A DNA stretch of 64,000 bases. Source: Streptomyces uncialis. GTDB taxonomy: Bacteria > Actinomycetota > Actinomycetes > Streptomycetales > Streptomycetaceae. The stretch lies in the NCBI RefSeq assembly GCF_036250755.1, contig NZ_CP109583.1, positions 1,364,001 to 1,428,000 on the forward strand, in the 5' to 3' direction. Position 1 is the first letter of the stretch. Every line of letters starts with the position of its first letter. Below, piece by piece: positions 7,489-25,778 of the stretch. The notes under the pieces were generated by a model. The model ran no database searches, was not told the DNA's origin, and saw only the letters and a list, made by a program, of their open reading frames with translations. The position numbers and the translations under genes are program-made.

Positions 7489-8443
7489 GGTGATCACCCC
7501 GGTGCGCTTGTCCTGCGGCAGGGCCTTCCCTCTCCGGCGGGGCTTGCGCGGACGCGCTCCGCGCCCTGGGCGGGAGCGTCACCACGCACGGCACCCGGCA
7601 CCGCCGACGGCACCGCGGGCGGCACGTGTCGCGCCGCAGGGGACACACCACCACGCCGAAGCGCTGGCACTCCCTTGTCCACGTGCCATTTTGCCCGTGC
7701 AGACCGCTTTCAAACGCTTTGCCGGGAATGCCGGGAACGGCGGGGCGGGGGAGTTCCTGGCGGCCCGCCGGTCCCGCCCCCATGAACGTCGCAGAGCCGG
7801 GAACGGTTTCCGTGCGTGCCCGGAGCGCCGCTCTGCGTGTCCGTCGGGCATGGGCGCGTTCCGCCCGACGGACCGCCGCCATAGCGTCCCGGGACCCGGC
7901 GTCCCAGCCGCAGACCGGCCGAACTCCGCTCACCGGCCGGGGGTGGCCGAAGCCGCCCGTCCCGGGCCCGGCCCCGCGCAGGGCCCGTCGGCGGCGATGC
8001 GGGCCGGGCCCGACGGCCTGTCCAGCGGCGAGCCCGTCCGGGCGCATCCGCGCGGACGGTGACCCGGTGCGCGGCCGGCGCGGCCGGAACCGCCGTCCGC
8101 CGGGCCGAACATGACCGAGAACACCCGGGCGACCGCCGCTCCCCCGGGCGCTCTGGTTCTTTTCGGCGTCCGGTGCCCGTCGGAGCGTCCGGACGCCGGG
8201 CCGGGCGGCCGTCGGGGAGCGGTGGAGGGCAGGCGTCCCCTTTGCCCGGCGGTCCCGGCCGCGCCGCCGCGTCCGGCCGCGCCTCCCGGGGTCCGGGCGG
8301 TCCGCCTGACGGGCCCCCGGGACCCGTGTGGTCCGTGGGATGAGATCGACTTGAAGCCACCCATGGGACGTTCTTTACATGGCCATGACCACTGCATCAC
8401 CATTCCGTTGCCGGTACGGACACACCCAGAGCAAGGAGAGTTC
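7489..8443. other. Long 955-base GC-rich intergenic region
   Basis: No reading frame here has a plausible start, ribosome binding site and recognisable protein. The reading frames present are Pro/Arg/Gly-rich, as expected of non-coding GC-rich DNA. The last about 100 bases before 8444 must hold the promoter of the first subtilase gene; TTGAAG at 8351-8356 with TTTACA 17 bases later is a weak candidate only. Confidence 0.4.
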
Positions 8444-11400: not shown

Positions 11401-12019
11401 GACGGCCGTCACCGTCACGGCCGACGCGTCGGGGGTCGCCCCGGGGACCGTCCTCACCGCGACGCTGAAGCTGGCCTCGGACAGCGGGCGCAAGCCGGTG
11501 ACCGACATCCCGGTCACCGTGGTCGTGCCCGCCTACCGGACGGCCGTGGACGCGGGAGCCGCCCGCGCCCTCACCGACGCGCACGGCGACACCTGGACCC
11601 CCGACCGCGCGTACACCGCCGGAAGCCACGGCCACCTCGGCGCCGGCACCCGGCTGACCACCAACCGGGCGCTGACCGGGAGCCCGCTCCACGACCCCGC
11701 CCTCTACCGCACCGCGCGCCAGGACATGCGGGAGTACCGCTTCGACGGGCTGCCGACCGGTACCTACCGGGTGGAACTGGGCTTCGCGGAGCTCGCGGGC
11801 AAGCGGCCGTCGCAGCGGGTCTTCGATGTGACGGCCGAGGGCAAGCTGGTCGTCCCCAACCTCGATCTGGCACTGGAGGCGGGCGTACGGACCGCGCACG
11901 ACCGGGCGTTCACCGTGCGGGTCACCGACGGACAGCTCGACCTGCGGTTCGACCGCACGGTGGGCAGGGCCCTGGTGAACGCGATCCGGGTGACCCACCG
12001 GCCCGATCTGACCGGCTGA
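8444..12019 (+). CDS. Secreted S8 subtilisin-like protease with carboxypeptidase-regulatory and malectin domains
   Basis: 1191 aa. Signal peptide (about 1-35, with Arg pairs then a hydrophobic stretch ending near AAPAA), inhibitor-I9-like propeptide (about 45-150), S8 catalytic domain (about 165-455). The triad is intact: Asp201 in TIDSG, His248 in GHGTHV, Ser420 in GTSMATPH. C-terminal half: beta-sandwich repeats of the carboxypeptidase-regulatory type (for example GTVTDANDGKPVAGATV), an Ig/BACON-like segment and a malectin domain from about 1031 (VDAGAARALTDAHGDTW). It should be an active extracellular protease with sugar-binding or anchoring modules. The GTG at 8444 has AAGGAG 7 bases upstream; an earlier in-frame ATG would add a non-signal extension. 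It is followed by an inactive-looking paralogue. Confidence 0.92.
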   Translation: MARRTPGRRGRFAALTAGFMALPLLLGAAPAAVPPDPGGTEAAPPAFRDKTEPGLRAQLGSRERATFWVTLAEEADSSAARRARDKTAKGRTLLAAKQSHARATQAPLKALLDGAGVRHESFWVTNTLKVTADEALARKIAARPEVASLAADDPVVLPDPLPGDGKPRVNAVEWNIDRINAPRVWSEFGARGENVVVATIDSGVQLGHPALHDRYRGLKADGGYDHAYNWYDPGWVCGPTKPCDNTGHGTHVMGTMVGDGGPDHTIGVAPGATWIAAKGCEDTRCTRESLLRSGEWMIAPTDTNGLNPRPDLAPHIVNSSWGNSSSDPWFKPVVQAWRDAGIFPAMSSGNSGSQCQATGSPGGYATTYSSGAFDANNAIASFSARGSGEEGAVKPNLAAPGVDVRSSWSDGTYRPLSGTSMATPHTAATVALMWSAAPSLRGDVAETERLLNRTAIDTEDLSCGGTPERNNVWGEGRLDAHAAVSAAPRGPVGAVSGGVTSGGAPVADAVLDFVGPVKARAHGDAQGRYHAKRLAAGEYTVTVSGFGFTPVTGTATVTANGTVTRDFSLERAPAARLTGRVTGASGAERRAVVGVVDAPASATTATTGADGTFSLDLPQGTYDISASPDHRCAAVATVRIEVRGNTVHDFRTPPRTDGFGTSCTVATDVPFPRGTKPITFPHTDRAVSTIDLPFPVPFYGRTHRGAAVSIDGVLGFSDLLHSGNNTLLPRAGAPDNALFPYWDDLVLGAGSGVHWAASGTAPHREVTVEWRDVALASSREVRFSFAAVIGEDGTASFHYENGPGAGLTNGESATIGVENPTGTDALMYSFNSSVVRGGTSVHFRTGDTAVLSGTVTDANDGKPVAGATVTAGGRTDTTRADGGYLFQLPPSAAQDLAVAAPHYTAATRQVRGEAGGVTVTDVALGTARITSEAASAHLVVPPGERRARDLTLTNTGSAGAYTLTEATDEPWLTVSPAGGELAAGGRTAVTVTADASGVAPGTVLTATLKLASDSGRKPVTDIPVTVVVPAYRTAVDAGAARALTDAHGDTWTPDRAYTAGSHGHLGAGTRLTTNRALTGSPLHDPALYRTARQDMREYRFDGLPTGTYRVELGFAELAGKRPSQRVFDVTAEGKLVVPNLDLALEAGVRTAHDRAFTVRVTDGQLDLRFDRTVGRALVNAIRVTHRPDLTG

Positions 12020-12086: not shown

Positions 12087-12167
12087 CCGGTGACGGCTGC
12101 CGGGCGGTATCCCGCCCCGCCGCACGGGGGCCCGCGGGGACGGACACACTCACAGCTAGGAGAGTTC

Positions 12168-15100
12168 GTGGCCAGACGCACAAAACCGGGACGCGGCACG
12201 AAAGCCGTCCTGACCGCCGTGGTGACGGCGGGTTCCCTCGTCCTGGGCCTCGCCCCGGCGCACGCGGCGCAGCCCGGCCCGTCGCCGTCGGCCGCCGCCT
12301 ACCGGGCCAAGGCCGACAGCGGGGTCCGCGCGGACCTCGACCGCACCGGCAGGGCGACCTTCTGGGTGACCCTGGACGACGAGGCCACCCTGCCGTCCGG
12401 CGTCGCGGCACGGACCAAGGCGGAACGCGGGCGGACCGTGTTCACGGCGAAGCGGGCCCACGCCCGCGAGGCCCAGGCTCCGCTGAAGGCCCTGCTGGAC
12501 GGCGCGGGGGCGACGTACGAGTCGTTCTGGATCACCAACACCCTCAAGGTCACCGCCGACCGGGACCTCGCCCGGCGGATCGCGGCCCGGCCGGAGGTCA
12601 CCGCGCTGAACCCGGACGAGGCGGTCTCCGTCGCCGACACGGGCAAGGCGACCGCCCCTGTGAGGACGGCCACGCCTGCGAAGGCGTCCGAGGTCCGCAA
12701 GGCACCCAGGACGCCTGAGGCAGGCACGGCATCCGAGAACCGCGAGGCAAGCAAGGCATCCGGGGCGTCCGGGGCGGGGAAGGCGTCCGAGTCCCGTGAC
12801 GCCGCCGCGGGCAAGGCCGCCGCCGCGCCCGCCGACGAAGCGGTGTGGAACATCGAGCGGATCAACGCCCCCCGGGTCTGGTCCGAGTTCGGGGTCCGGG
12901 GCGAGGGCATCGTCGTCGCGGACATCGGCACCGGGGTCGGGCTGGAGCATCCGGCGCTGCGCGACCGGTACCGGGGGCTGACGGCCGACGGCAGCTACGA
13001 GCACGCGTACAGCTGGTACGACCCGATGAACTACTGTCCCGGGAACGCGCCCTGCGACACCTCCTTCGTGGGCACCTCGGCCGTGGGCGTCATGGTCGGT
13101 GACAACGGTCCGGGGCATCGGATCGGTGTCGCTCCCGACGCGGACTGGATCGCCGCCAAGGCGTGCCAGGCGATGGGCTGCGCCGTGGACTCGATCCTGC
13201 GGGCCGGGCAGTGGATGATCGCGCCGACCGACGCGAGGGGCGCCAACCCCCGCCCGGACCTCGCGCCGCACGTGGTGAACAACTCCTGGTGGGTGAACAA
13301 CACCAACGCCTGGTTCAAGCCGGTCCTCCAGGCGTGGCGGGACGCGGGCATCTTCGCCTCGTTCCCCAACGACGGGGGCGGCCCCCGCTGCGAGTCGGCG
13401 ATCGGTGTCAGCGGATACGCGGACGCCTATGTCACCACGACCTTCGGCGCCGACGGCGCCCTGCACGCCGAGTCGGCGCGCGGCTCGGGCGAGAACGGCG
13501 CGGTGAAGCCCAACATCGCGGCGCCCGGGGTCAACATCCGCAGCGCCGGACGGGACGGCGGCTACGCCCTTGTCACCGGGCCGGGGATGGCCGCGTCGCA
13601 CACGGCCGGGACGGTGGCGCTGCTCTGGTCGCTGGCGCCCGGCCTGCGGGGCAAGGTGGCGGAGACCGAGCGGGTGCTCGACGGCTCGGCGATCGATGTG
13701 GACGACACGAGCTGCGGCGGCACGCCGGCCGACAACAACGTCTGGGGTGAGGGCAAGCTCGACGCCCGTGCCGCCGCCGCGGCGATCCCCGCCGCGCTGC
13801 ACGGCTCCGCCGGTGGCACGGTGACCTCGGGCGGCGGACCGCTGGCCGAGGCGGCCGTGGCCTTCTCCGGTCCGACGAAGGCGCGGGTGCGCAGCGACGC
13901 CTCCGGCGTCTACCGCGCGCCGGTCCTGGCGCCGGGCGACTACACGGTCACCACCACGCTGTTCGGCTATCTGAGCCGTACGGCGCCGATCACCGTCGGC
14001 GCGGGCGGGCACGTCACCCACGATGTGGCGCTGGACGAGGCGCCGATGGCGCGGCTCACCGGACGGGTCACCACCGCGTCCGAGCCCGAGGGGAACGCGC
14101 TGGTCGCCGTCGCGGGGACATCCGCGTCCGTGCGCACCGCGCGGGACGGCACCTGGGCGCTGCGGGTGCCGCACGGTACGCACGGCCTGACGGTGACCGC
14201 CGACCACCGCTGTGCCGAGACCTCGACCGTCCAGGTCGGGGTCACCGGTGACACCGTCCGGGATGTCGGTCTCACCCGGCGGACCGATGTGTTCGGCACC
14301 ACCTGCACCGTGGAGAGCGGCAGGGCGTTCCCGACCGGGGACACGAAACTGCCGTTCCATATGCCCAGTTTCTCCATGTCCACCTTCGATCTGCCGTTCC
14401 CGGTCCCGTTCTACGGCCGTACGTACCGCAAGGCCACCGCGTCGCTCGCCGGGGTGCTCGGCTTCGGGCGGATGAGCACCCGGGCCAGGAGCGCGCCGCT
14501 GCCGGACATCAGCGTGCCCGACGGGGCGGTCTACGCCTTCTGGGACGATCTGGCCGCGGAGGCCGATTCGGGGGTGTACTGGTCGGCGGGCGGCACCGCG
14601 CCGCACCGCACCGTCACCGTCGAGTGGCGGAACATGCGGCTCATCATGAGCAATCCGCAGGAGCGGGTCTCGTTCTCCGTGGTGGTCTCGGAGGACGGCA
14701 CCGCGTCGTCCCACTACAAGAATGTGACCGGGGCGAAGGCCAACGGTTCCAGCGCCGGGATCGGCGTGGAGAACGCGACCGGCACGGACGCGCTGCACTA
14801 CTCCAACGACGAGGGTCTTCTGCGCGACGGGATGAGCATCCACTACCGCACGAACAGCGCGGTGGTCGCGGGCAAGGTCACCGACGGCAACGACGGCGAG
14901 CCGGTCGCCGGGGCCACCGTGACGGCCGGGGGACGCAGCGACACCACGGGACCCGACGGCCGCTACGCGTTCCAGGTCCCGGCGCCGGAGGCGCATCAGG
15001 TGACGGTGAGCGCCCCGGACCACACCTCCACCGAACGGCGGCTGACCGTCGAGCCCGGCGGGACGACCGTGACCGATTTCGCCCTCGACACCGGGCGGGT

Positions 15101-15890
15101 CACCGCCGACACGGCGTCGCTGCATCTCGTCGTCCCGCCCGGGGAGCGGCGGGTGCGGACCGTGGAACTGGCGAACTCCGGCTCCGCAACCCCGTACAAG
15201 ATCGCGGAACGCGGGGACCAGCGCTGGGTGTCGGTCGATCCGCCGTCGGGTGAACTGGCGGCGGGGGCGCGCAAGTCGCTCGGCGTACGGTTCGACACCA
15301 CGGGGGTGGCCCCGGGTACGACGCTCACCGGGACCTTGCGGCTGAGCACCTGGAGCGGACGGAAGCCGGTGATCGACATCCCGGTCACGGTGGTCGTGCC
15401 CGCCTACCGGGCGGCTGTCGACGCGGGAGCCACCGGCGCCCTCACCGACGCGCACGGCGACACCTGGACCCCGGACCGCGCGTACACCGCCGGAAGCCAC
15501 GGCTACCTCGGTACGAGCACCCGGCAGACCACGACCCGGACGCTCACCGGGAGCCCGCTCCACGACCCCGCCCTGTACCGCACGGCACGCCAGGGGATGT
15601 ACGAGTACCGCTTCGACACCGTCCCGAACGGCACCTACCGGGTGGAGCTCGGGTTCGCCGAACTCGCCGACCAGCGGCCTTCGCAGCGCGTCTTCGACGT
15701 GATGGCCGAGGGCGAGCTGTTCGTCACGGATCTCGATCCGGCGCGGGAGGCGGGCGTACGGGCCACGCATGACCGGGCGTTCACGGTACGGGTCACCGAC
15801 GGGCAGCTGAATCTGCGGTTCGTCACCAACTCCGGCAAGACACTGGTGAATTCGGTACGCGTCACCGAACGGTCCGATCTGACCGGCTGA
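12168..15890 (+). CDS. Secreted subtilase-malectin paralogue lacking catalytic His and Ser (pseudoprotease)
   Basis: 1240 aa with the same architecture as the preceding gene: signal peptide, I9-like propeptide, S8-fold domain, regulatory-type beta repeats, malectin domain from about 1081. The catalytic Asp is kept (Asp252 in DIGTG), but the His motif is replaced (aligned CDTSFVGTSAVG, Val301 at the His site) and the Ser motif reads TGPGMAASH (Gly473 at the Ser site). It cannot work as a normal serine protease. An Ala/Ser/Lys-rich linker of about 65 residues (about 158-224) sits between propeptide and S8 domain and is absent in the paralogue. The frame is intact over 3.7 kb, so it is probably kept for a non-catalytic role such as decoy, binding or partner of the active protease (inference). 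GTG start with TAGGAG. Confidence 0.88.
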   Translation: MARRTKPGRGTKAVLTAVVTAGSLVLGLAPAHAAQPGPSPSAAAYRAKADSGVRADLDRTGRATFWVTLDDEATLPSGVAARTKAERGRTVFTAKRAHAREAQAPLKALLDGAGATYESFWITNTLKVTADRDLARRIAARPEVTALNPDEAVSVADTGKATAPVRTATPAKASEVRKAPRTPEAGTASENREASKASGASGAGKASESRDAAAGKAAAAPADEAVWNIERINAPRVWSEFGVRGEGIVVADIGTGVGLEHPALRDRYRGLTADGSYEHAYSWYDPMNYCPGNAPCDTSFVGTSAVGVMVGDNGPGHRIGVAPDADWIAAKACQAMGCAVDSILRAGQWMIAPTDARGANPRPDLAPHVVNNSWWVNNTNAWFKPVLQAWRDAGIFASFPNDGGGPRCESAIGVSGYADAYVTTTFGADGALHAESARGSGENGAVKPNIAAPGVNIRSAGRDGGYALVTGPGMAASHTAGTVALLWSLAPGLRGKVAETERVLDGSAIDVDDTSCGGTPADNNVWGEGKLDARAAAAAIPAALHGSAGGTVTSGGGPLAEAAVAFSGPTKARVRSDASGVYRAPVLAPGDYTVTTTLFGYLSRTAPITVGAGGHVTHDVALDEAPMARLTGRVTTASEPEGNALVAVAGTSASVRTARDGTWALRVPHGTHGLTVTADHRCAETSTVQVGVTGDTVRDVGLTRRTDVFGTTCTVESGRAFPTGDTKLPFHMPSFSMSTFDLPFPVPFYGRTYRKATASLAGVLGFGRMSTRARSAPLPDISVPDGAVYAFWDDLAAEADSGVYWSAGGTAPHRTVTVEWRNMRLIMSNPQERVSFSVVVSEDGTASSHYKNVTGAKANGSSAGIGVENATGTDALHYSNDEGLLRDGMSIHYRTNSAVVAGKVTDGNDGEPVAGATVTAGGRSDTTGPDGRYAFQVPAPEAHQVTVSAPDHTSTERRLTVEPGGTTVTDFALDTGRVTADTASLHLVVPPGERRVRTVELANSGSATPYKIAERGDQRWVSVDPPSGELAAGARKSLGVRFDTTGVAPGTTLTGTLRLSTWSGRKPVIDIPVTVVVPAYRAAVDAGATGALTDAHGDTWTPDRAYTAGSHGYLGTSTRQTTTRTLTGSPLHDPALYRTARQGMYEYRFDTVPNGTYRVELGFAELADQRPSQRVFDVMAEGELFVTDLDPAREAGVRATHDRAFTVRVTDGQLNLRFVTNSGKTLVNSVRVTERSDLTG

Positions 15891-16000: not shown

Positions 16001-17563
16001 TCAGTCCCGGCGCAGCACGGCCCGGCCGACCGCCGGGATCTCGAAGAAATAGCGCAGGGTGCCTGCCGGGGTGAGTGTCAGCTCGATCGGGATGTTGTGG
16101 TCGCAGCGGTTGGCGCGGTTGCTGTCGAGCTGCTCCCGGACGACGAGTTCGCCGCCGTCGCGTGATTCGAGGACCCATTCGCCCCCGCATTCCAGGGTGG
16201 GGTAGTCGACGGTGGCGACCGGCTCGCCCAGTTCCAGCTCCGTGCCGGGGAAGACGGCCTTGACGGGGTACGACAGGCCGTTGTCCTGTTCCACCGTGCC
16301 GCGCCAGGTGCCGCCGAGTGTGGTGTCCCCGGGCGGGGCGGAGCTGCCCGCGGTGGGCGCGGGACGCGGCGGTGAGCCGCCGTCCAGGCCGGTGCCGGGG
16401 TCCGTCTGACGCATCAGCAGGACACCGGTGAGCGCGCCCGCGAGCAGCAGCACCACGGTGGTCAGTCCGAGGACCACCACCCGCTGGCGGTCGGCGGTCC
16501 GTCCGGGCGCCGCTGTCGGCCCGTACCCGGCCGCCGGGGCGGGCGGCAGCGGCGGGAGGGGCGGCGGGGGCCGCCCGGGAGGCCCCGGCGGCTGCGGGAC
16601 GCCGGCGGGGAAGGCGGGGGCGGTCGGGCTGTAGGGCACGACCGTCGGCGCGGTGTCCAGGGTGTACGACAGGAGGTCCGGGTCGTGCAGCCGGGAGGCG
16701 AGACGGTCCACGTGCCCGGCGATGTCCGGGGGCAGATAGGACCGGGAGCCGCGGGTGGCGGTGTCCCGGGTGCGGTGCATGATGTCCGCCGAGGTGGGCC
16801 GCTGGGACGGTTCGGGGTCCAGACAGGACCGGACGAGGTCCCGCAGCCCGCCGGTGATCCCGTACAGGTCGGGGGCCTGGGACAGCACGGCGAGCAGTCC
16901 GGCGACCCCGGAGTCGTCGGCGGTGGTAAACGGGGTGCGGCCCGTCGCGGCGAACGCGAGGACCAGGCCGAGGCAGAACACGTCGCTGGCCCCGGTGATC
17001 GAGGCACCGGTCAGCTGCTCGGGGGACATGAAGCCCGGGGAGCCGACGACGATGCCGGTGCCCGTCATCCGTCCGCCCTCGACGGCACGCGCTATCCCGA
17101 AGTCGATCAGCGCGGGACCGTCCAGGCCCAGCAGCACGTTCGACGGTTTGACGTCCCGGTGGATCAGTGACCGCCGGTGCAGGGTGTCGAGGGCCTGCGC
17201 CAGACCGAACGCCAGGGCCCGTACCGAACCGCCGGGCAGCGGACCGAACCGCTCGGTGGCGTCCTGGAGCGAGATCGAGGGGAAGTACACGGTCGCCACC
17301 CAGGGAACGGCGGCCTGGGTGTCGGCGCCGAGCACCCGTACCGTCCAGGGGCTGGACGCCGTCCGGGCGGCCTCCACCTCGCGGGCGAACCGGCGGCGGA
17401 ACTCGCCGTCGACCGCCAGTTCGGGGCGGATCATCTTCACCGCCGCCCACTGCCCGCGCGCGTCCCGGCCCAGGTAGACCCGCCCCATACCGCCCGCGCC
17501 GAGGCGGCCGACCAGGGCGTAGGACCCCACGGTTCGCGGATCCTCGCCGCTCAGCCGTTCCAT
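16001..17563 (-). CDS. Membrane Ser/Thr protein kinase (PASTA-less, PknB-like)
   Basis: 520 aa. Hanks-type kinase domain about 14-275: glycine loop GRLGAGGMGRVY, Lys43 in AAVKM, HRDVKPSN at 135-142, DFG at 154-156 and SPE near 180. A Pro-rich juxtamembrane stretch (about 300-360) precedes one membrane helix (about 368-390). The remaining about 130 residues are extracytoplasmic, contain two Cys and resemble no PASTA repeat; they may be a sensor. It should phosphorylate cytoplasmic targets in response to an outside signal. The ATG at 17563 has GAGGGG upstream. It is convergent with the subtilase pair and divergent from the biosynthetic operon; a link to either is only positional. Confidence 0.9.
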   Translation of the reverse strand: MERLSGEDPRTVGSYALVGRLGAGGMGRVYLGRDARGQWAAVKMIRPELAVDGEFRRRFAREVEAARTASSPWTVRVLGADTQAAVPWVATVYFPSISLQDATERFGPLPGGSVRALAFGLAQALDTLHRRSLIHRDVKPSNVLLGLDGPALIDFGIARAVEGGRMTGTGIVVGSPGFMSPEQLTGASITGASDVFCLGLVLAFAATGRTPFTTADDSGVAGLLAVLSQAPDLYGITGGLRDLVRSCLDPEPSQRPTSADIMHRTRDTATRGSRSYLPPDIAGHVDRLASRLHDPDLLSYTLDTAPTVVPYSPTAPAFPAGVPQPPGPPGRPPPPLPPLPPAPAAGYGPTAAPGRTADRQRVVVLGLTTVVLLLAGALTGVLLMRQTDPGTGLDGGSPPRPAPTAGSSAPPGDTTLGGTWRGTVEQDNGLSYPVKAVFPGTELELGEPVATVDYPTLECGGEWVLESRDGGELVVREQLDSNRANRCDHNIPIELTLTPAGTLRYFFEIPAVGRAVLRRD

Positions 17564-17781
17564 CCGCCGTCCCCTCAAGAACCGCCGCCCCCGCCGCGCC
17601 GTCCCGGAGATCCTGACAGACCATCCGGGACGGTGTCAGTCGCTCCGCGCGCTTCCTGACGCGGTGTGTGCACCGCATGTGCGTATGCCCGGCCACCCGG
17701 TCCGGTACCCGGGGAGGACCCAGGGACGGCCTGAGTACCCGCACTCACGCCATGGCCGGATTCCGTTCCTAGTCTGCTGCC
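17564..17781. promoter_or_regulatory. Divergent promoter region, probable leaderless start for the six-gene operon
   Basis: TAGTCT at 17770-17775 has -10 character and is placed so that transcription would begin at or next to the ATG at 17782. That ATG has no ribosome binding site, so a leaderless transcript is likely for the first gene of the operon. No good -35 is visible. The kinase promoter reads the other way from the same 218 bases. Confidence 0.4.
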
Positions 17782-18810
17782 ATGAACAGACAGAAGGCGG
17801 TGGCCGACGACAGCGCGCGTGTCGGCATCACCGGTGTGGGGGCCTTCCTTCCCGGGCGTGTCGTGGATTCGGAGCGGTTGCGGCGGCGGGTCGCCCCGGC
17901 GGGCGGGCCGCCGCTGCCCGCCGGGATCTTCGAGCGGGCGACGGGCATCGTCAGCCGGCGGGCCGCGGGCCCGGACGAGTTCGCGTCGACCCTGGCGGTG
18001 GCCGCCGCGCGGGACGCGCTGCGCGGCGCCGGGCTCGGTCCGGCGGACATCGATCTGCTGGTCTTCGCCTCCGCGAGCCGCGACATGGTGGAACCGGCGA
18101 CCGCGCACATCGTGCAGGACGCGCTGGGCTCCCGGGCGCACGCCCTGGACGTCACCAACGCCTGCAACAGCTTCGTCAACGGTATCGACACGGCACGGGC
18201 GATGATCCTGGCCGGGCGGGCCCGGCGGGCCCTGGTCGTCACCGGGGAGACCCCGAGCCGGGCGGTGCGCGACACCCCGGCGGACCTCGCGGAGTTCCGC
18301 GACGGCTTCGCCGGGTACACGTTCGGCGACGCGGGCGCGGCCGTCGTACTGGAGCGCGTGACGCGTGGCGGCATCCTCGACGTGGACGGCGAGACGTACT
18401 CCGAGCACTGGCGGGCGGGAGGGATACCCGGCGGCGGCTCACGCCATCCGCGCGGCGACGAGCACTCCTACTTCCGGGGCGACGGCAGCGAACTGCGGGG
18501 GGTGTTCGAGCGGATCGGCCCCCCGGTGCTGGACCGGACACGGGCCCGTACCGGACTGGAGTGGACGGACTTCCGGTACGTGCTGACGCATCAGGTGACG
18601 GTGCCGTTCCTGGAGCGGTTCGTGGCACTCACCGGGGTGCCCGAGGACCGGCTGGTGGTCACGGTCGCGGAGCTGGGCAATGTCGCGAGCGCCAGCCTGG
18701 GCGTGCAGCTCGCCCGGGTGCACGGCACGCTGCGCGCCGGGGACCGGGTGCTGTTCGTCGGGCTCGGCGGCGGGGTCAGCATCATGACGCTGGTCTGGGA
18801 GCACGTATGA
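17782..18810 (+). CDS. Ketoacyl-ACP synthase III (KASIII/OleA-like thiolase fold)
   Basis: 342 aa, full length for KASIII. The Cys-His-Asn triad is present: Cys128 in VTNACNSF, His270 in LTHQ, Asn300 in ELGNVASAS; the C-terminal GLGGGVSIMTLVWE is typical. KASIII enzymes condense an acyl-CoA or acyl thioester with malonyl-ACP or, in OleA and related enzymes, with a second acyl chain. Here it probably forms or transfers the acyl core of the operon product. It starts the six-gene operon and its stop overlaps the next start by 4 bases (ATGA). No acyl carrier protein gene is in the operon, which favours CoA substrates (inference). Confidence 0.88.
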   Translation: MNRQKAVADDSARVGITGVGAFLPGRVVDSERLRRRVAPAGGPPLPAGIFERATGIVSRRAAGPDEFASTLAVAAARDALRGAGLGPADIDLLVFASASRDMVEPATAHIVQDALGSRAHALDVTNACNSFVNGIDTARAMILAGRARRALVVTGETPSRAVRDTPADLAEFRDGFAGYTFGDAGAAVVLERVTRGGILDVDGETYSEHWRAGGIPGGGSRHPRGDEHSYFRGDGSELRGVFERIGPPVLDRTRARTGLEWTDFRYVLTHQVTVPFLERFVALTGVPEDRLVVTVAELGNVASASLGVQLARVHGTLRAGDRVLFVGLGGGVSIMTLVWEHV

Positions 18811-19547
18811 GCACCCTGTGGGTGGTGGTGCCCGCACACCAGGAGGCCGGCCGGATCGGGGACACCCTGACCGCGCTGGCCGCGCAGCGGGACCGGGACT
18901 TCCAGCTCGTCGTCGTCGACAACGCGTCCGTGGACGGCACGGCGGCGATCGCCCGCGACTTCGCGCGGCGGGCGCCGTTCCCGGTGCATGTGCTCCAGGA
19001 ACCGGAGAAGGGGGTGGGCTGCGCGGTCGACACCGGGTTCCGGTACGCCATCGGGCACGGTGCCGAGCTGCTCGCCCGGACCGACGCGGACTGTCTGCCC
19101 CGACCGGGCTGGACGGCCGCCGCGCGGACGGCGCTGGACCGGGGCGCGCAGCTGGTGTGCGGGCGGGTCGACGCGCGCCGCGACGAGCACGGGCCGCTGG
19201 GACGGGCCGGGTTCAGGGCCCTGGTGCGGGTCGCCGCGTTCTTCGGGCGGATACGGCCCGCGCACCACCGGCGGCACGGCTATCTCACCCCGTACCGGAT
19301 GCACGCGGGCAACAACATGGCCGTCACCGCCGAGCTGTACCAGCGCGTCGGGGGCATGCCCCGGCGCCCCTCCCCCACCGACCGGCTGTTCCTGAACCGG
19401 GTACGCCGGCACAGTGCCGCCATCGTCCATGTCCGCGGCATGGTCGTGGAGAACTCCACCCGGCGGCTGCGCGCCTACGGGATCGTCGCCACCGCCCGCT
19501 GGTACCTCGACCGGGGACCCGGCCGTCATGGGGAGGACCCCCGCTGA
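18807..19547 (+). CDS. GT2-family glycosyltransferase (first of two paralogues)
   Basis: 246 aa, GT-A fold. Seen: STLWVVVPAHQEAGRIGDTL at the N-terminus, VVVDNASVDGT (nucleotide-sugar site), the metal-binding DAD in LLARTDADCLP, and RYAIGHGAELL between them. Family members transfer a sugar from a nucleotide-sugar to lipid, polyol or glycan acceptors; no membrane helix of a processive synthase is evident. It is translationally coupled on both sides (ATGA with the KASIII gene, 1-base overlap with the ligase gene). It is clearly a paralogue of the protein encoded at 21019-21792. Acceptor and sugar are unknown. Confidence 0.85.
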   Translation: MSTLWVVVPAHQEAGRIGDTLTALAAQRDRDFQLVVVDNASVDGTAAIARDFARRAPFPVHVLQEPEKGVGCAVDTGFRYAIGHGAELLARTDADCLPRPGWTAAARTALDRGAQLVCGRVDARRDEHGPLGRAGFRALVRVAAFFGRIRPAHHRRHGYLTPYRMHAGNNMAVTAELYQRVGGMPRRPSPTDRLFLNRVRRHSAAIVHVRGMVVENSTRRLRAYGIVATARWYLDRGPGRHGEDPR

Positions 19548-21022
19548 TGCTCGACGCCCTCACCCACGCGCTGCGCGCCGCGCCCGGCCGCCCGGCGCTC
19601 CTCAAGGCCACCCGCACCGGCCGGACCCGGGTGCTCGCCACGCGCGGGGACCTGGCCGAGCTCGCCGACCGGTACGCCGCCGCCCTGCACGCCCGTGGCC
19701 TGACGCCCGGCGGCACGGTCGGCGTCGCGGTCCGCCCCGGTCCCCGCGCGCTGGCGGTGCTGCTCGCCGCGCACCGGCTCGGGCTGCGCGCGGCGGTCCT
19801 CGACCCCGGCGCGGGACCCGAGGTGCTGCGGGCCCGGCTCGCGCTGGCCCGGCCGGACGTCGTGCTCGCGGACGCCGCCGCCCAGGCCGTCGCCGGGTGG
19901 GCCCGCCCCCTCGCCCGCCGGGCCCGGCTCGCGCTGCCCGACCTGGCGGACCTGGGCCCGGTGGCCACCGTCGGACCCCGGCTGCCGGGCTGCGCCCCCG
20001 CGCTGGACACCGGCGCGCGTACGGACGGGCTGCCGCGCCCGGTGGACGGGGACGGGGACGCGGTCGTCGTCTTCACGTCCGGCACCACGGCCCTGCCCCG
20101 CGCGGTGGTCCACACCCGGTCGTCGCTGGCCGCCGGGATGGCGACGGTCGCGGAACTGGTGCGTCCGGAGCCCGGCCGTCCGGTGCTGGGCGGGACGTTC
20201 TTCGTCCTCGTCCCGTCGCTGGCGAGCGGCGCCCCGGTCGCCCTGCCCGCCCGCTCCCCCCGGACCCTGGCCCGGCAACTGCGCCGACTTGCTCCGCAGG
20301 CCACCTATCTGACACCCCCTCAGCTCCGGGCGGCGCTCGACATGGGCGCGCGGTTCTCCGGGCGGGTGTGGACCGGTTCCGCCCCGGCGGGCGCCGCGCT
20401 GCTCGGCCGGGTACGGGCCGCGGGCGCCGACGAGGCGTGGGGGGTGTACGCGCTGACCGAGCTGTTCCCGGCGGCGGCCGTGGAGGCCGCCGAGAAGGCC
20501 GCGTTCACCGGGGACGGCGATCTCGTCGGCGCCCCACTGCCCGGGGTGGTGACCGGCTCCGGTCCGGACGGTGAGCTGCTGCTGTCCGGTCCCGCGGCCC
20601 GCGACCGCTATCTCGGCGCGGCGCCGGACCCCTGGGTCGCCACCGGGGACCGGGCCCGGCTGGAAGGCGGCCGGATCGTACTGGAGGGACGGTTGAAGGA
20701 CATGGTCCTGAGAGGGGCGGAGAACATCTACCCGGGACTCTACGAACCGGCGTTGCACATACCGGGCGTCGCGCTCGCCGTACTGGTGGGCGTCCCGGCC
20801 GGGGACGGCGACGAACGGCTCGTCGCCGTCGTCCAGCCCGAACCGGGCGCGGCCCCGGACCGGGTACGGGCCGCCCTGAGCGGACCGCTGGACCGGATGG
20901 GCGGGGCCCGGCCGGACGCGCTGCTGCTGGCGGACGTACCGCTGTCCGGACGCTCCTCGAAGCCCGACCGGGCGGCCACGGCCAAGCTCGCCGCGACCCG
21001 GCTGGCCGGAGCGGTCCGGTGA
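19547..21022 (+). CDS. ANL-superfamily acyl-AMP/acyl-CoA ligase
   Basis: 491 aa. Adenylation motifs in order: VVFTSGTTALPRAVVH (A3, residues near 170), GVYALTE (A5), ATGDRARLEGG (A7), GRLKDMVLRGAENIYP (A8) and a terminal GRSSKPDR with the A10 Lys. It should activate a carboxylic acid with ATP, then load CoA or another acceptor. In Ole-type pathways the equivalent enzyme closes a beta-lactone, but this A8 region looks like an ordinary acyl-CoA ligase. The ATG shares one base with the TGA of the preceding gene, so translation is coupled. The substrate is probably a fatty or hydroxy acid made in the operon (inference). Confidence 0.87.
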   Translation: MLDALTHALRAAPGRPALLKATRTGRTRVLATRGDLAELADRYAAALHARGLTPGGTVGVAVRPGPRALAVLLAAHRLGLRAAVLDPGAGPEVLRARLALARPDVVLADAAAQAVAGWARPLARRARLALPDLADLGPVATVGPRLPGCAPALDTGARTDGLPRPVDGDGDAVVVFTSGTTALPRAVVHTRSSLAAGMATVAELVRPEPGRPVLGGTFFVLVPSLASGAPVALPARSPRTLARQLRRLAPQATYLTPPQLRAALDMGARFSGRVWTGSAPAGAALLGRVRAAGADEAWGVYALTELFPAAAVEAAEKAAFTGDGDLVGAPLPGVVTGSGPDGELLLSGPAARDRYLGAAPDPWVATGDRARLEGGRIVLEGRLKDMVLRGAENIYPGLYEPALHIPGVALAVLVGVPAGDGDERLVAVVQPEPGAAPDRVRAALSGPLDRMGGARPDALLLADVPLSGRSSKPDRAATAKLAATRLAGAVR

Positions 21023-21792
21023 ACGCGACCGGCACGCCGTCGCTGTGGGTCGTGGTGCCCGCGTTCGACGAGGAGTCCGCGATCGGCGGCACGCTCGCCG
21101 CACTCGCCGCGCAGAGCGATCCGGGGTTCACCCTGGTCGTCGTGGACAACGCGTCGACCGACGGGACCGCCGGGCTGGTCCGCCGCTTCGCCGCCACGGC
21201 GCCGTTCCCCGTCCGGCTGCTGCACGAGCCGCAGCGCGGCACCGGATGCGCCGCCGACACCGGGTTCCGCTACGCGATCGGGCACGGCGCCACGCTGCTC
21301 GCCCGCACCGACGCCGACTGCCTGCCCGCCCGCGACTGGGTCGCCGCCGCGAAGGACGAACTGGCGCGGGGCACGGAACTGGCCTGCGGACGCAGTGTGC
21401 CCCGCCCCGACGAGTCACCGTCGTTCGCCGAACGCGTGGTGCTCCCGGCGGTGGTACGGATGACGGCGCTGTACGGGCGCTACCGCCGCGCCCACCGCCA
21501 CCCGCGCTACCGCGCCCCGTACGTGCTGTGCCACGGACACAACATCGCCCTCACCGCCGATCTGTATCTGCGGTGCGGCGGCGCGCCCCGGACCCCGCTC
21601 GCGGGCCCGCCCGAGGACGTCGTCCTGCTCAACCGGGCCCGTGAGCACAGCGACCGGATCGCGCGGGCCGAGGGGATGGTCGTCCGCGCGAGTCTGCGGC
21701 GGCTGCGGGCGTGGGGGCCGCGCCGGACCCTGCTGTGGTGCTGGGACCGGCGCTACCGGCCCGCCGACGAGCGGAAGGTGCACGTCCGTTGA
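21019..21792 (+). CDS. GT2-family glycosyltransferase (second paralogue)
   Basis: 257 aa, GTG start overlapping the ligase stop by 4 bases (GTGA). Seen: SLWVVVPAFDEESAIGG, VVVDNASTDGT, TGFRYAIGHGATLLARTDAD with the DxD-type metal site. It aligns along its whole length with the protein encoded at 18807-19547, so the pair arose by duplication within or before the operon. Two related transferases in one short pathway suggest two sugar additions or two acceptor positions (inference). No signal peptide; cytoplasmic or membrane-associated. Confidence 0.85.
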   Translation: MNATGTPSLWVVVPAFDEESAIGGTLAALAAQSDPGFTLVVVDNASTDGTAGLVRRFAATAPFPVRLLHEPQRGTGCAADTGFRYAIGHGATLLARTDADCLPARDWVAAAKDELARGTELACGRSVPRPDESPSFAERVVLPAVVRMTALYGRYRRAHRHPRYRAPYVLCHGHNIALTADLYLRCGGAPRTPLAGPPEDVVLLNRAREHSDRIARAEGMVVRASLRRLRAWGPRRTLLWCWDRRYRPADERKVHVR

Positions 21793-23219
21793 ACGCCGCC
21801 CCGGACACCGGCGCGCGCGCCGCGCGCCGACGCGACCGCCGGGTCTACACCCGCTCCCGTCCACTGCTGTTCGCCCTGCTCGCCGCCGCCCGGCGGCGGC
21901 CGGTGCTGCGCCTCGGCGGGACGGTCCTGGTGAACGGCACCGAGCCGTACCGGCACGCCCTGACCCGGATTCCGCTGGACCGGGCGGCGGAGGGCACCAC
22001 GGGCGGCGCCGCCCGTGAACTGTCCGGCGGGGGAAGCCTGTTCGACGAGGAGGGCGCCGGTCACCGCGCGGCCCGGCGGACCGTCGCCCTGGACCTGGGC
22101 GCGGCCGGGGTGGAACGGCTGCGCCCGGTGTGGCGCGCGGTGCTGAACCGCCGGCTCGCCCCGCTCGCCACCGGTGACGCCGTCGATCTGGTGCCACTGG
22201 CGCGGGAGTTGGCCGGGGTGACGGTCCGCGCGCTGCTGGACGTCACGGCCGATCCGGCCGCCCTGTCCGACGCGGCGGCCGAGGTGGCGGCGGTGGCCGT
22301 ACGCGGCCATCTGCCGGGCCCCGGCCGGTCCCGCGCGGCACGCGCCGCCGGACCGGCCGCCGCCCGGCTGGCCGCACTGCTGACGCCCGCCGGGCAGGAC
22401 GACCTTGACGAGCGCGTTCGGGACGAGCGCGTATCGGGCGAGCACGTATCGGGGGCGCACGTTCCGGGCGAGCACGAACCGGACGGGAAGCCGGGACGTG
22501 ACGGGAGCGGTGGCGTGGGACGCGAGGCGGTTGGCGAGGCGGCGGGTCACGTCGGACAGAGCGCGGGTGCCGACACGGGACGGGAGGCAGCTGGCGACAC
22601 GGGACGGGAGGCACGACAGGGCGCGGGCGGTGACGCTCGACAGGGCGCGGGCGGTAGCGCCGGTGGTCGCGCGGGACGGGACGCGGAGCGTGACGCGGCG
22701 CGGCGGGCGATGCTCGCCGTCGCCGCGGTGAACACCACCGTCGCGGCGCTGCCTCGGGCCGCCGCCTGGTGCGCGGACGCCGGGCTGTGGGAGCAGGCCG
22801 CCGACAGCCGGTCGCGGGCCGCCCTGGTGGACGAACTCCTGCGGGTCGTCGCGCCCTCGCCGCTGCTGCCCCGGGTCGCCGCCGCCGACGCCGACCTCGA
22901 CGGCTGCCCGGTACGGGCCGGGGACCGGCTGATCCTGGTCGCCCGGCACGCCGTCCACGCCGACGACACCCCGCCCGACGCCCGGTGCCCCGTGGCGCCC
23001 GCCGTCGCCCAGCTCGTCTTCGGCGCGGGCCCGCACGCCTGCCCCGGTGCCCGGCTCGCCCGTGCGCAGCTGGACGACATGCTCGCCGCGCTCGCGCCCT
23101 TCCGACCGTCCGTTGTGGCGGCCCGGGCCGACCGGCGGGCCGCGCTGCCCGGCTGGCGCACCCTGACCGTCCGGGCCACCGCCTTGGCGCCCGGACCCCA
23201 CGGAGGTTCCCCATGCTGA
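21789..23219 (+). CDS. Cytochrome P450 with a low-complexity insertion
   Basis: 476 aa. P450 signatures: Glu/Arg pair in DELLRVVAPSP (helix K), Thr pair in VAAVNTTVAAL (helix I) and heme-ligand Cys418 in FGAGPHACPGARLA. It is a monooxygenase for the operon product or precursor; redox partners are not encoded here. The TTG start overlaps the preceding stop (TTGA), a rare start kept by coupling. Residues about 206-304 form a Gly/Ala/Arg/Asp-rich insertion before helix I encoded by short tandem repeats; ordinary P450s lack it. The N-terminal part is shorter than usual, without a membrane anchor. Confidence 0.85.
   Translation: MNAAPDTGARAARRRDRRVYTRSRPLLFALLAAARRRPVLRLGGTVLVNGTEPYRHALTRIPLDRAAEGTTGGAARELSGGGSLFDEEGAGHRAARRTVALDLGAAGVERLRPVWRAVLNRRLAPLATGDAVDLVPLARELAGVTVRALLDVTADPAALSDAAAEVAAVAVRGHLPGPGRSRAARAAGPAAARLAALLTPAGQDDLDERVRDERVSGEHVSGAHVPGEHEPDGKPGRDGSGGVGREAVGEAAGHVGQSAGADTGREAAGDTGREARQGAGGDARQGAGGSAGGRAGRDAERDAARRAMLAVAAVNTTVAALPRAAAWCADAGLWEQAADSRSRAALVDELLRVVAPSPLLPRVAAADADLDGCPVRAGDRLILVARHAVHADDTPPDARCPVAPAVAQLVFGAGPHACPGARLARAQLDDMLAALAPFRPSVVAARADRRAALPGWRTLTVRATALAPGPHGGSPC
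22572..22655 (+). repeat. 24-base-period minisatellite inside the P450 gene
   Basis: GACACGGGACGGGAGGCA occurs at 22572-22589 and 22596-22613, then CGACAGGGCGCGGGCGGT at 22614-22631 and 22638-22655, both with 24-base spacing. The protein shows an 8-residue period (DTGREAAG, DTGREARQ, GAGGDARQ, GAGGSAGG). The period is a multiple of three, so copy-number change would keep the frame. Confidence 0.8.
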
Positions 23220-24130
23220 CGATCGCCGTCACCGGCGCCACCGGCTTCTGCGGCTCCTACACGGCCGTCACCGCCGCCGCCCGGGGCGCCCGGGTGCTGT
23301 GCGTGGGACGGCGGCCGGGGCCCGTCGGACGGCACGTCCCGTGGGACGCCGCGACCGGGGTGCCGGACCTCGGCGGCGCCGATGTCGTGGTGCACTGCGC
23401 GGCGGCGGTCGGGGACCCGGTGCCCGGGTCCCCGGCCGAGGCCACCATGCGCGAGGTGAACGTCGGCGGCACGGAACGGCTCCTGCGCGCCGCGGCCGGC
23501 CGCCCGGTGGTGTGGGTGAGCAGCGCCAGCGTCTACGCCCCGGGCGCCGACCGCTCACGGATCACCGAGGACCACCCGGTGCGCGACCAGCTGAACGCGT
23601 ACGGCCGCACCAAGGCCGAAGGCGAGGCCCTGGCGCTCGCCGCCGGGGCGGTGGCGCTGCGTCCGCGCGCGGTCTACGGGGAGGGTGACCCGCATCTGGT
23701 GCCCCGGCTGCTGGCACGGGTGCGGGCCGGGGTCCTGCTGCTCCCGGGACCCGATGTGCGGCTGAGCCTGACCGCGGTGGAGAACCTCGCCGACGCCGCC
23801 CTGGCCGCCGCGGGATGGCCGCCGGGCGCGTACAACATCGCCGACGCGCGGCCGTACCAGCGGGACGCGGCGATCCGGGAGGTCCTGCGCGCGCACGGGG
23901 TGCGGGCCCGGATCGGTCACGTTCCGCTGCCGCTGGCCCGTACGGCCGCGCGGACCGCCGAGTCCCTGGCCCGACGGCGCCCCGGCGCCGAACCCCCGCT
24001 GACCCGGTACGCCGTCGACCAACTGGCCCACACGGTCGTCCTGGACATCACCAAGGCGGGAGCCCAGGGCTGGCACCCCACCCACCACCTCACCACCCAC
24101 CTGAACACGCTCCCCGTCCCGTCCCCCTGA
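23213..24130 (+). CDS. NAD(P)-dependent epimerase/dehydratase/reductase (extended SDR, OleD/3beta-HSD-like)
   Basis: 305 aa. Rossmann motif VTGATGFCG at the N-terminus, catalytic SSASVY and YGRTK (YxxxK), and the extended-SDR segment LRPRAVYGEGDPHLVPRLL. It probably reduces a beta-keto or oxidises a hydroxy group of the operon product, or modifies a nucleotide-sugar. The start overlaps the P450 stop by 7 bases and has GGAGG, so it is the last coupled gene of the operon. By order and fold it is comparable to OleD, which reduces the OleA product, but sequence assignment to that family is not proven. Confidence 0.82.
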   Translation: MLTIAVTGATGFCGSYTAVTAAARGARVLCVGRRPGPVGRHVPWDAATGVPDLGGADVVVHCAAAVGDPVPGSPAEATMREVNVGGTERLLRAAAGRPVVWVSSASVYAPGADRSRITEDHPVRDQLNAYGRTKAEGEALALAAGAVALRPRAVYGEGDPHLVPRLLARVRAGVLLLPGPDVRLSLTAVENLADAALAAAGWPPGAYNIADARPYQRDAAIREVLRAHGVRARIGHVPLPLARTAARTAESLARRRPGAEPPLTRYAVDQLAHTVVLDITKAGAQGWHPTHHLTTHLNTLPVPSP

Positions 24131-24213: not shown

Positions 24214-25080
24214 TCAGAGGGGGAACCCACCCCCGGGAGCCGTCCCCAGCGGAGCGGTCGCGATGAACTCCCGGATCAGACCGGCCAGTAGCTCGGGCTG
24301 ATCGCGCATGATCCAGGTGCGGCTGTCGGGGATGCTCTCCAGCCGCGCGTCGGGCAGGGTCGCGGCCAGCCGCACCCCGTACCGGAACGGGAAGATCCGG
24401 TCCTCGCGCGCGAACGCGACCAGGGCGGGCGCGCCGAAGGCCGCGAGCCGTTCGGCGGCGTCCGTGAGGACGACCGGACCGAGTCCCCGGGTGACCTTCG
24501 CGCAGTCGCGCCGCACCCCCCGGTCGGCGAAGTACGCGCGGATCCAGGTGTCGATGAGGTCATGGGGCAGCGCCCGCCTGGTCAGCGGCCCGTACGCGAA
24601 CGGCAATCCGCGCGGGGCGCGCAGCCGCAGGGACTGGAAGGCCAGCGGGAGCAGCCCGGGCACCCTGGCCGCCGGGACGAGGGGCCTGAACACGGGCGCC
24701 GGGCAGTTGTCGAAGCTCTCGCCGCTGGTGAGCACCAGCCGGCCGATGTGCTCGGGGTGATCGGCGGCGACGAGCTGGGCGACGGCGGTGCCCAGGTCGT
24801 TGCCGACCAGGGTCACCCGGCGCAGACCGAGTCCTTCGATCAGGTCCGCGACGAGCCGGGCCACCCCCGGGAGGCTGAGGTCCGCGTCCGGCGCCAGCGC
24901 CTCGGAGTGGCAGCCGAACGGCAGGTCGGGCACCACGCAGCGCAGGCCCGGGGCGAGCCGGTCGACGAGCGGTTCCCACAGCCCGCCGCCCATCAGATAG
25001 CCGTGCAGCAGGACCAGCGGCTCGCCTTCCCCGGTGTCCTGATAGTGGACGGTCCCCTGGGGAAGCGTGATCTGCGGCAT
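24214..25080 (-). CDS. Alpha/beta hydrolase (haloalkane dehalogenase/epoxide hydrolase-like)
   Basis: 288 aa. Seen: oxyanion HGYLMGG, Asp nucleophile in GNDLGTAV (about residue 95), acid region FAREDRIFP. The usual catalytic His site reads SRTWIMRDQPE, with Thr where His is expected; several actinobacterial relatives share such a T-x-x-x-x-D-x-P pattern, so this may be a subfamily trait rather than damage. It could hydrolyse an ester, epoxide or lactone; it is convergent with the six-gene operon, not part of it. The ATG at 25080 follows GAGGGG. A divergent TetR gene and palindrome control it. Confidence 0.82.
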   Translation of the reverse strand: MPQITLPQGTVHYQDTGEGEPLVLLHGYLMGGGLWEPLVDRLAPGLRCVVPDLPFGCHSEALAPDADLSLPGVARLVADLIEGLGLRRVTLVGNDLGTAVAQLVAADHPEHIGRLVLTSGESFDNCPAPVFRPLVPAARVPGLLPLAFQSLRLRAPRGLPFAYGPLTRRALPHDLIDTWIRAYFADRGVRRDCAKVTRGLGPVVLTDAAERLAAFGAPALVAFAREDRIFPFRYGVRLAATLPDARLESIPDSRTWIMRDQPELLAGLIREFIATAPLGTAPGGGFPL

Positions 25081-25105
25081 GGCGTGACCCCTCACATCGG
25101 CATTC

Positions 25106-25122
25106 ACATACAGACTGTATGT
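25106..25122. promoter_or_regulatory. TetR operator, 8+1+8 palindrome
   Basis: ACATACAG-A-CTGTATGT is a perfect 17-base palindrome in the 86-base gap between the divergent hydrolase and TetR genes. Position and symmetry are those expected of an autoregulatory TetR site repressing both genes. Confidence 0.8.
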
Positions 25123-25166
25123 ATGTAGAGAGTGCATGCAGAATGGACGGAACTCAAGGGGGTCGG

Positions 25167-25778
25167 ATGGAATCCGTCGGCAGCAAGCACGTCCAGCGTT
25201 CCCAGGCGACCCGGGCGGCCCTGGTGGCCGCCGCCCGGCGGCTGTTCGGCGAGCGGGGCTACGCGAACGTCGGGACCGAGGAGATCGTCCGGGCCGCGGG
25301 CGTGACCCGCGGGGCGCTCTATCACCAGTTCCGGGACAAGACCGATCTGTTCGACGCCACGGTCCGGACGGTCGAGGCCGAGGTCACCGATCGGATCGCC
25401 GCCCGGATGCGGGCGGGTGCCGCCGACCCGGTCGCGGCCCTGCGGACCGGGGCCCGCGCGTTCCTGGACGCCTTCGCCGAGCCGGACGTGGAACGCGTCC
25501 TGCTGCTGGACGCCCCGGGCGTGCTGGGCTGGCGGCGCTGGCGTGAGATCGGCCAGGAGTACGGCCTGGGGGTGATCACGTCGGCGCTGGAGGCGGCGAT
25601 GGCGGCCGGGGTCATGACCGTCCAGCCCGTGGTGCCGCTGGCCCATCTTCTGCTCGGCGCCCTGGACGAAGCGGCACTCAAGGCCGCCCACGCCGAGGAC
25701 CCCGAGGCCGCCCGTACGGAGATGGCCGAGGCCCTGGACAGCCTGCTGACCGGCCTGCTCATCCGTAAGGACATCTGA
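25167..25778 (+). CDS. TetR/AcrR-family transcriptional repressor
   Basis: 203 aa. N-terminal HTH with TRAALVAAARRLFGERGY, GTEEIVRAAGVTRGALYHQF (helix-turn-helix), then a ligand-binding helical domain. The ATG at 25167 is chosen for the AAGGGGG just before it; an in-frame ATG at 25119 lies inside the operator. It should repress the divergent hydrolase gene and itself through the palindrome at 25106-25122, with release by a small ligand that may be the hydrolase substrate (inference). Confidence 0.88.
   Translation: MESVGSKHVQRSQATRAALVAAARRLFGERGYANVGTEEIVRAAGVTRGALYHQFRDKTDLFDATVRTVEAEVTDRIAARMRAGAADPVAALRTGARAFLDAFAEPDVERVLLLDAPGVLGWRRWREIGQEYGLGVITSALEAAMAAGVMTVQPVVPLAHLLLGALDEAALKAAHAEDPEAARTEMAEALDSLLTGLLIRKDI

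Follow-up and report, generated by a model that had tools for sequence, protein, structure and literature searches.

A conserved, overlapping six-gene operon of Streptomyces uncialis with an OleA-like condensing enzyme as a candidate OleB-less lipid pathway

The stretch of Streptomyces uncialis DNA analysed here, called the window, is 64,000 nucleotides long (assembly GCF_036250755.1, contig NZ_CP109583.1, positions 1,364,001 to 1,428,000 of the forward strand). It carries six consecutive genes, encoding a β-ketoacyl synthase III-type condensing enzyme (KASIII), a family 2 glycosyltransferase (GT2a), an adenylating ligase of the ANL type, a second glycosyltransferase (GT2b, 58% identical to GT2a), a cytochrome P450 and an extended short-chain dehydrogenase/reductase (SDR), preceded by a palindrome that we presume to be an operator (Table 1). 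Each gene overlaps the next: KASIII and GT2a through ATGA, GT2a and the ligase through TGATG with a single shared base, the ligase and GT2b through GTGA, GT2b and the P450 through TTGA, and the P450 and SDR through seven bases. This layout had been proposed in a sequence-only reading of the same DNA; direct reading confirmed it at all five junctions, and the Pfam calls (KASIII, GT2, AMP-binding ligase, GT2, P450 and epimerase-type SDR) agree for six of the six genes. No TTA codons occur in the six operon genes.

Table 1. Features of the operon, its upstream region and the adjoining genes in the window.
Feature	Position	Strand	Basis or remark
KASIII gene	17782..18810	+	direct sequence reading, Pfam, models, alignments, trees
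GT2a gene, soluble GT-A-fold family 2 glycosyltransferase with DAD motif	18807..19547	+	reading, Pfam, predicted fold
ANL adenylating ligase gene	19547..21022	+	reading, Pfam, models, alignments
GT2b gene, GT2a paralogue	21019..21792	+	reading, Pfam, pairwise identity, gene order in relatives
Cytochrome P450 gene	21789..23219	+	reading, Pfam, alignments
Extended SDR gene, OleD-like	23213..24130	+	reading, Pfam, models, alignment
Palindrome TGAGTACCCGCACTCA, presumed operator	17732..17747	+	activator position; about 51 bases before KASIII start, centre at about −43
−10-like TAGTCT	17770..17775	+	6 bases before ATG; sequence
α/β hydrolase gene, GNDLG nucleophile motif	24214..25137	−	divergent from the TetR-type regulator gene
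TetR-type regulator gene	25119..25778	+	

Relatives were collected by a KASIII scan with one genome per species, which found 156 loci, and the best 80 of these were analysed; record titles assign 56 to a Streptomycetaceae type and 24 to a Micromonosporaceae type, while loci referred to below as Streptomyces or genus loci come from genomes that the tool assigned to the same genus. A contig end cuts 12 of the 80. Among the 68 uncut loci, the full order KASIII–GT2a–ligase–GT2b–P450–SDR is present in 37, GT2b alone is missing in 26 (at an 80-bit tblastn threshold), the gene order is irregular in four (L060, L068, L076 and L102), and one, L110, reads KASIII–ligase–P450–SDR with no adjacent GT2 gene. 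The order KASIII–GT2–ligase–(GT2)–P450–SDR is found in 23 of the 24 Micromonosporaceae-type loci. The overlaps lie beyond chance, because they recur in the relatives: counted with script-set starts, and excluding pairs at least 400 bases apart or overlapping by at least 60, they join KASIII to GT2a in 72 of 76 pairs, GT2a to the ligase in 51 of 67, the ligase to GT2b in 28 of 31, GT2b to the P450 in 9 of 12 and the P450 to the SDR in 40 of 58, and the ligase to the P450 in 11 of the 23 loci where GT2b was not found. The proposal of a coupled, conserved set, for which a search of gene order across actinobacteria had been suggested, is thus borne out; the order is not unique to one strain but is kept in two families.

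The operon is also present in S. uncialis DCA2648 (L031; KASIII 100% identical, P450 93% over the longest piece), and pKVP2, a linear plasmid of S. viridifaciens, carries a five-gene copy. In a genus sample searched at E 1e-40 the ligase occurs in 22 of 199 genomes, the own genome included, four of the 22 holding a divergent type, and in a phylum sample searched at E 1e-70 the KASIII occurs in 3 of 396 genomes, namely the own genome and two others from its genus. Conservation, sampling pattern and plasmid copy therefore show a unit that behaves as a transferable cassette. The divergent type, found in genus genomes G191, G157, G194 and G048 (L143–L146), is a set of P450, KASIII, GT2, P450, ligase and SDR genes, with a KASIII 46–48% and a ligase 39–42% identical to those of the window; at L145, the sole divergent locus scanned, a ligase of fatty acyl-AMP ligase type precedes the set, which lies between purF and an aminoimidazole ribonucleotide synthase (purM-like) gene.

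The palindrome upstream of the operon is conserved as well. The sequence TGAGTANNNNNRCTCA has a single match in the window (shuffle mean 0.00) and nine places in the own genome, where its reversed control has one. In the region between −150 and +60 relative to the start of the KASIII gene, the exact pattern TGAG-N8-CTCA occurs in 51 of the 56 Streptomycetaceae-type loci, with positions from −52 to −43 in 49 (the outliers, L081 at −87 and L068 at +1, have uncertain starts), and with at most one mismatch in 53; the background expectation is 0.008 exact palindromes per region. Among the 24 Micromonosporaceae-type loci it is exact in seven and has at most one mismatch in nine, one of them (L103) at another position. 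Over the 1.5 Mb of the 80 loci there are 61 exact sites, of which 56 fall between 60 and 40 bases upstream of the KASIII gene; 56 of the 80 relatives have the pattern at the distance seen in the window, and the plasmid copy has its palindrome at −51. It is absent from the divergent clusters L143–L146, and six Ole loci of the genus (L198–L203) have together one site, at another position. Beyond the operon, TGAGTANNNNTACTCA was found in 40 of 41 genus genomes, at 144 sites when we added up the table, while its reversed control gave 14 sites spread over 12 genomes, and TGAGTAnnnnTACTCA is present in 1–8 copies per genome in 40 of 41. Of 28 sites elsewhere (20 in seven other genomes and 8 in the own genome), nine have a script-called frame start 43–58 bases away on one strand. 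The genes near such palindromes were named by eye (L189–L195 and L207–L226), several sites having no script-called frame; they include PlsC-like acyltransferases (L189, L209 and L218), small membrane proteins, lipoproteins and WXG/ESX-like proteins, and Maf-like frames lie 204–262 bases from the palindrome in L208, L217, L219, L223 and L225.

Three known operators were compared with the palindrome. The HAIR element of HspR, CTTGAGT-N7-ACTCAAG, was rejected as its identity, the spacing being off by one, and BldM was rejected because its consensus TCACcCgnncGgGTGA differs (PMC4125116, available part). The WhiJ9 repeats, CGXXCTCAAC, are described as direct repeats in the available text of PMC10294661 and have only CTCA in common with the palindrome. 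A literature text search with the letters of the palindrome turned up no operator among the papers listed, the matches in PMC7480387 and PMC9045223 being oligonucleotides. The conserved palindrome is a new finding of this work, and it offers a direct handle on the timing of expression of the operon. From the sequence we infer a leaderless-type promoter, with transcription starting at the KASIII ATG; TANNNT 4–9 bases before the start is found in 34 of the 80 relatives as a raw count.

The KASIII of the window has the triad C128, H270 and N300, a Cys-His-Asn set common to other KASIII enzymes, and in addition the Glu-Pro pair of OleA-type enzymes (E104-P105). After a length filter, and with the window included, 79 KASIII, 78 GT2a, 69 ligase, 35 GT2b, 68 P450 and 68 SDR rows were aligned; at least 95% of the KASIII rows have Glu at the OleA-base position. 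The Glu-Pro pair is shared by all 10 sampled family rows, all four divergent rows and all 14 OleA references; of the four KASIII paralogues found in the own genome, three were aligned and all three lack it. The references are loci around PRK09274-model ligases in actinobacteria, with an OleD-like SDR in 13 of the 14, L135 being the exception. Solved structures matching by sequence include the FabH-type enzymes 4dfe and 4ryb, the PQS biosynthetic enzyme 3h76, which we take to be PqsD, and the 3-oxoacyl-synthase III 3fk5, presumably OleA; the site reads VEPAT in the window, LEPST in 3fk5, VFPST in 4dfe, MQFPST in 4ryb and HDPSQ in 3h76. According to the available text of PMC7064751, this Glu, position 117 in Xanthomonas OleA, is a catalytic base contributed by the partner subunit, is essential in that enzyme, and is part of a Glu-Pro pair in all but two of the OleA proteins aligned there. 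The window enzyme does not pass the FabH model TIGR00747 (135.5 bits versus 292.1). In trees whose family rows came from the window and nine hand-picked loci of the 80, the own paralogues separate from the family with support of 100/100 in the first and, with one more FabH-type row and with row oleA_L129 excluded for its long branch, of 100/99 in the second. Of the phylogenetic placement for which the sequence-only reading had called, the separation from the FabH-type paralogues thus stands, while the place beside classical OleA is not settled by the trees. Judged by its residues, the KASIII is OleA-like, with triad and Glu-Pro in place and its deep position in the tree unsettled.

The SDR, with a TGATGFCG cofactor site and Y130xxxK134, has two OleD models as its best named matches, with scores of 79.8 and 76.7 bits that stay far short of the cut-off of 580, and by this measure is nearest to OleD. 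The resemblance to OleA and OleD noted in the sequence-only reading is supported. OleA products decarboxylate unless they are reduced, which, together with the likeness of the ligase to acyl-CoA ligases, would fit a ketone, a 1,3-diol or another simple lipid as the product, the condensed acid being lost as CO2 and the ligase recycling or supplying acyl-CoA. We regard such a product as very improbable: in 40 of 58 loci the genes for the P450 and the OleD-like SDR overlap, a sign that the pathway itself reduces the keto acid. The P450 keeps its heme cysteine C418, the ExxR motif (E349-R352) and the I-helix T316, the I-helix acid being replaced (N315); this helix reads mostly NT(T) in the family rows and TET in two divergent P450s. 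A low-complexity, repeat-like insert of about 100 residues (approximately 205–305, window positions about 22401–22703) precedes the I helix, and the length in relatives ranges from 360 to 602 residues, one fragment of 189 residues being excluded. GT2a, aligned as the window sequence with 18 of the 78 GT2a rows and GT2b, is predicted with confidence to adopt a soluble GT-A fold (mean predicted local distance difference test score, pLDDT, 82.4); its best structural matches, WrtF fucosyltransferase, PcManGT and chondroitin polymerase at 17–23% identity, point to no donor or acceptor. Because L110 keeps KASIII, ligase, P450 and SDR with no adjacent GT2 gene, sugar is probably added late or off the main route.

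OleB is absent from the operon, as had been stated before. An OleB-like query from L202 matched only five hydrolase places in the own genome (9.26 Mb), at best 43% over about 120 residues, and in the 80 family loci, whose flank lengths vary, nothing but a 49-residue piece in L031. The α/β hydrolase gene next to the operon was considered for this role and rejected: it is 30% identical, over a piece only, to the OleB-like gene of L202, its model matches are generic and below cut-off, and among the 80 loci it recurs at 99% in L031 (the locus with the 100% KASIII) and weakly, at 33%, in L049, and so is not conserved beside the operon. Apparently complete Ole loci do occur in the genus. In L198–L203, a KASIII with EPATAH or EPATSH, 35–41% identical to that of the window, lies near an OleC with RHN[AS]K, an OleD and a hydrolase labelled OleB-like from place and sequence rather than from a library. 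Within a single genus, related KASIIIs thus have OleC and OleB as companions at some loci and this other ligase, a P450 and GT2 enzymes at others. L198–L204, with OleC, OleD and an OleB-like hydrolase, look like complete ole sets (the KASIII was matched in L198–L203), and large genes that by eye resemble polyketide synthases stand beside L202 and L203. L205 has a tandem KASIII, OleC and OleD, an arrangement we take to be lipstatin-like; its KASIII pair is distant (31–33% in matched pieces). With the olefin pathway OleABCD (Xanthomonas, Micrococcales, L198–L203) the window shares the Glu-Pro of the KASIII, the OleD-like SDR and an adenylating ligase, but it has no OleB, its ligase lacks the A8 and A10 motifs of OleC, and GT2 and P450 genes are added. 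OleACD β-lactone clusters (lipstatin and nocardiolactone, known to us by description from the available part of PMC7064751) have, like the window, OleA- and OleD-like enzymes without OleB.

The family ligase has an A8 motif GRxKDMxLRxAENIYPGLYEP and an A10 motif GRSxKPDR; in the window, the CoA-ligase-type A8 loop spans residues 381–403 and the A10 lysine is K472. All eight OleC references (three single ligases and five in long OleBC-like frames) have an A8 without Lys-Asp and NIYP and an A10 reading RHN[AS]K, motifs that were derived from our own alignments rather than from a paper. RHN[AS]K was also found in 18 of another 20 PRK09274-like ligases from the genus, the pattern missing L177 and L178, and the window ligase does not pass the curated OleC model NF045786 (45.6 bits, cut-off 900). 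An A8 of the ordinary acyl-CoA ligase type, as noted earlier, is therefore upheld, and the ligase is, by its motifs, one without OleC signatures; because it keeps the CoA-ligase A8 loop and lacks those signatures, a β-lactone is not specially supported, and a glycosylated 2-alkyl-3-hydroxy fatty acid is no less probable.

The sequence-only reading could match the operon to no described pathway, which was too strong. A literature search on OleA, OleC and β-lactones, in which subscription papers were sparsely covered, gave one relevant match, PMC7064751, whose available text describes, for Actinoplanes atraurantiacus, an OleA–glycosyltransferase–OleC–P450–OleD region and suggests as its product a β-lactone that is glycosylated and hydroxylated. 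That region is like the window in gene kinds and order, and of the 24 Micromonosporaceae-type loci 14 have Actinoplanes in their titles; we infer from the shared gene order and the genus that it belongs to the same family. It differs in that one glycosyltransferase is named there while the window has two, and in that its ligase is called OleC while the family ligase lacks the motifs of the OleC references. A cluster discussed for one Actinoplanes strain is thus a coupled cassette of many Streptomyces and Micromonosporaceae and of at least one linear plasmid. The ligase assumed to be its β-lactone synthetase is without motifs found in the OleC references, and whether ligases of this kind merit their published name, OleC, should be put to the test.

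We favour, at about even odds (0.5), a single polycistronic lipid pathway that would be initiated by an OleA-type condensation, proceed without OleB and be tailored by P450 and sugar, its reactions, step order, product and location all being predictions from the sequence. In a head-to-head condensation that retains the carboxylate, the KASIII would turn two fatty acyl-CoAs into a 2-alkyl-3-keto acid, with Glu as base as in OleA; the SDR would reduce the keto group to give the 2-alkyl-3-hydroxy acid, the P450 would hydroxylate a chain and one or both GT2 enzymes would glycosylate a hydroxyl. The ligase would then activate the carboxylate as acyl-adenylate, and transfer to CoA or another acceptor appears likelier than closure to a β-lactone because its A8 loop is of CoA-ligase rather than OleC type; alternatively, it may provide the KASIII with acyl-CoA. 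The route would end in an α-branched β-hydroxy fatty acid that is oxidised and glycosylated, has a mycolate-like backbone and may be tied to the envelope. The product class named at the outset, a lipid or lactone bearing sugar and oxidised, stays a sensible assignment.

Several results weigh against this pathway. Two KASIII hidden Markov models score nearly equally (165.6 and 159.6 bits, the second presumably OleA-related) and both below cut-off, and the second tree puts the family, the divergent type and the Streptomyces Ole loci on one side (63/41) and classical OleA with the FabH-type rows instead of the family (92/38), neither with support. These scores and the deep tree leave the subfamily unsettled, and the KASIII could instead be a CerJ/PqsC-like acyltransferase, which would use acyl-CoA made by the ligase to attach a fatty acid to a sugar or another acceptor. 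KASIII acyltransferases such as CerJ are known in glycoside pathways, and a GT2 gene follows KASIII in 63 of the 68 uncut loci (those with regular orders); with Glu-Pro and Cys-His-Asn conserved, an OleD-like SDR, and L110 carrying its KASIII without an adjacent GT2, we find this improbable. Also to be counted against an OleA-initiated pathway with sugar tailoring and a conserved operator are the lack of the exact palindrome in all 14 Actinoplanes-titled loci and the genes beside the operon, where no cluster occurs in more than 10 of the 80 loci (crude gene calls in 77 loci, among up to 45 clusters listed) and clusters spanning both family groups (for instance 1+9, 6+2, 1+6 and 3+3) differ in position between loci. 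The purified OleA of the A. atraurantiacus cluster, moreover, showed no reaction with the acyl-CoAs tested, while in vivo it hydrolysed p-nitrophenyl hexanoate (both from the available part of PMC7064751).

A small ligase tree likewise runs counter to the acyl-CoA ligase assignment, with the family on the OleC side against four other ligases (96/90), too few outgroup rows to rely on. It would suit the glycosylated, hydroxylated β-lactone proposed for A. atraurantiacus (PMC7064751, available part), with the ligase as a divergent β-lactone synthetase, as would the lack of a close OleB in the available DNA of the 80 family loci and in the own genome. The difference of all eight OleC references from the family at A8 and A10, and the RHN[AS]K of 18 of 20 further ligases where the window has GRSxKPDR, make this product doubtful, though it has to be reckoned with; if it were made, β-lactone synthetase detection based on motifs or models would miss a whole family. 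Within the OleA-initiated pathway, the ligase motif and, to a weak degree, the appearance of other palindrome-adjacent genes put a retained 2-alkyl-3-hydroxy acyl product somewhat ahead of a β-lactone. In its fullest form, which we put forward tentatively and hold to be rather unlikely, the operon would make a glycosylated mycolate-like lipid through an OleA-type KASIII in actinobacteria without mycolic acids, an ordinary acyl-activating ligase replacing OleC and keeping the 2-alkyl-3-hydroxy acyl group activated for an envelope glycolipid, and the Streptomyces operon would belong to a genus-wide envelope regulon through TGAGTAnnnnTACTCA at an activator position. Were the product indeed a glycosylated α-branched β-hydroxy lipid, these bacteria would be making a class of lipid not expected of them.

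Divergent from the operon lies a gene for an AfsK-like serine/threonine kinase (16001–17578, reverse strand; 278 bits versus an AfsK cut-off of 1300). Farther upstream, two adjacent large open reading frames on the forward strand (8111–12019 and 12090–15890), of 1302 and 1266 residues, give weak serine-protease-like and S-layer-like model matches.

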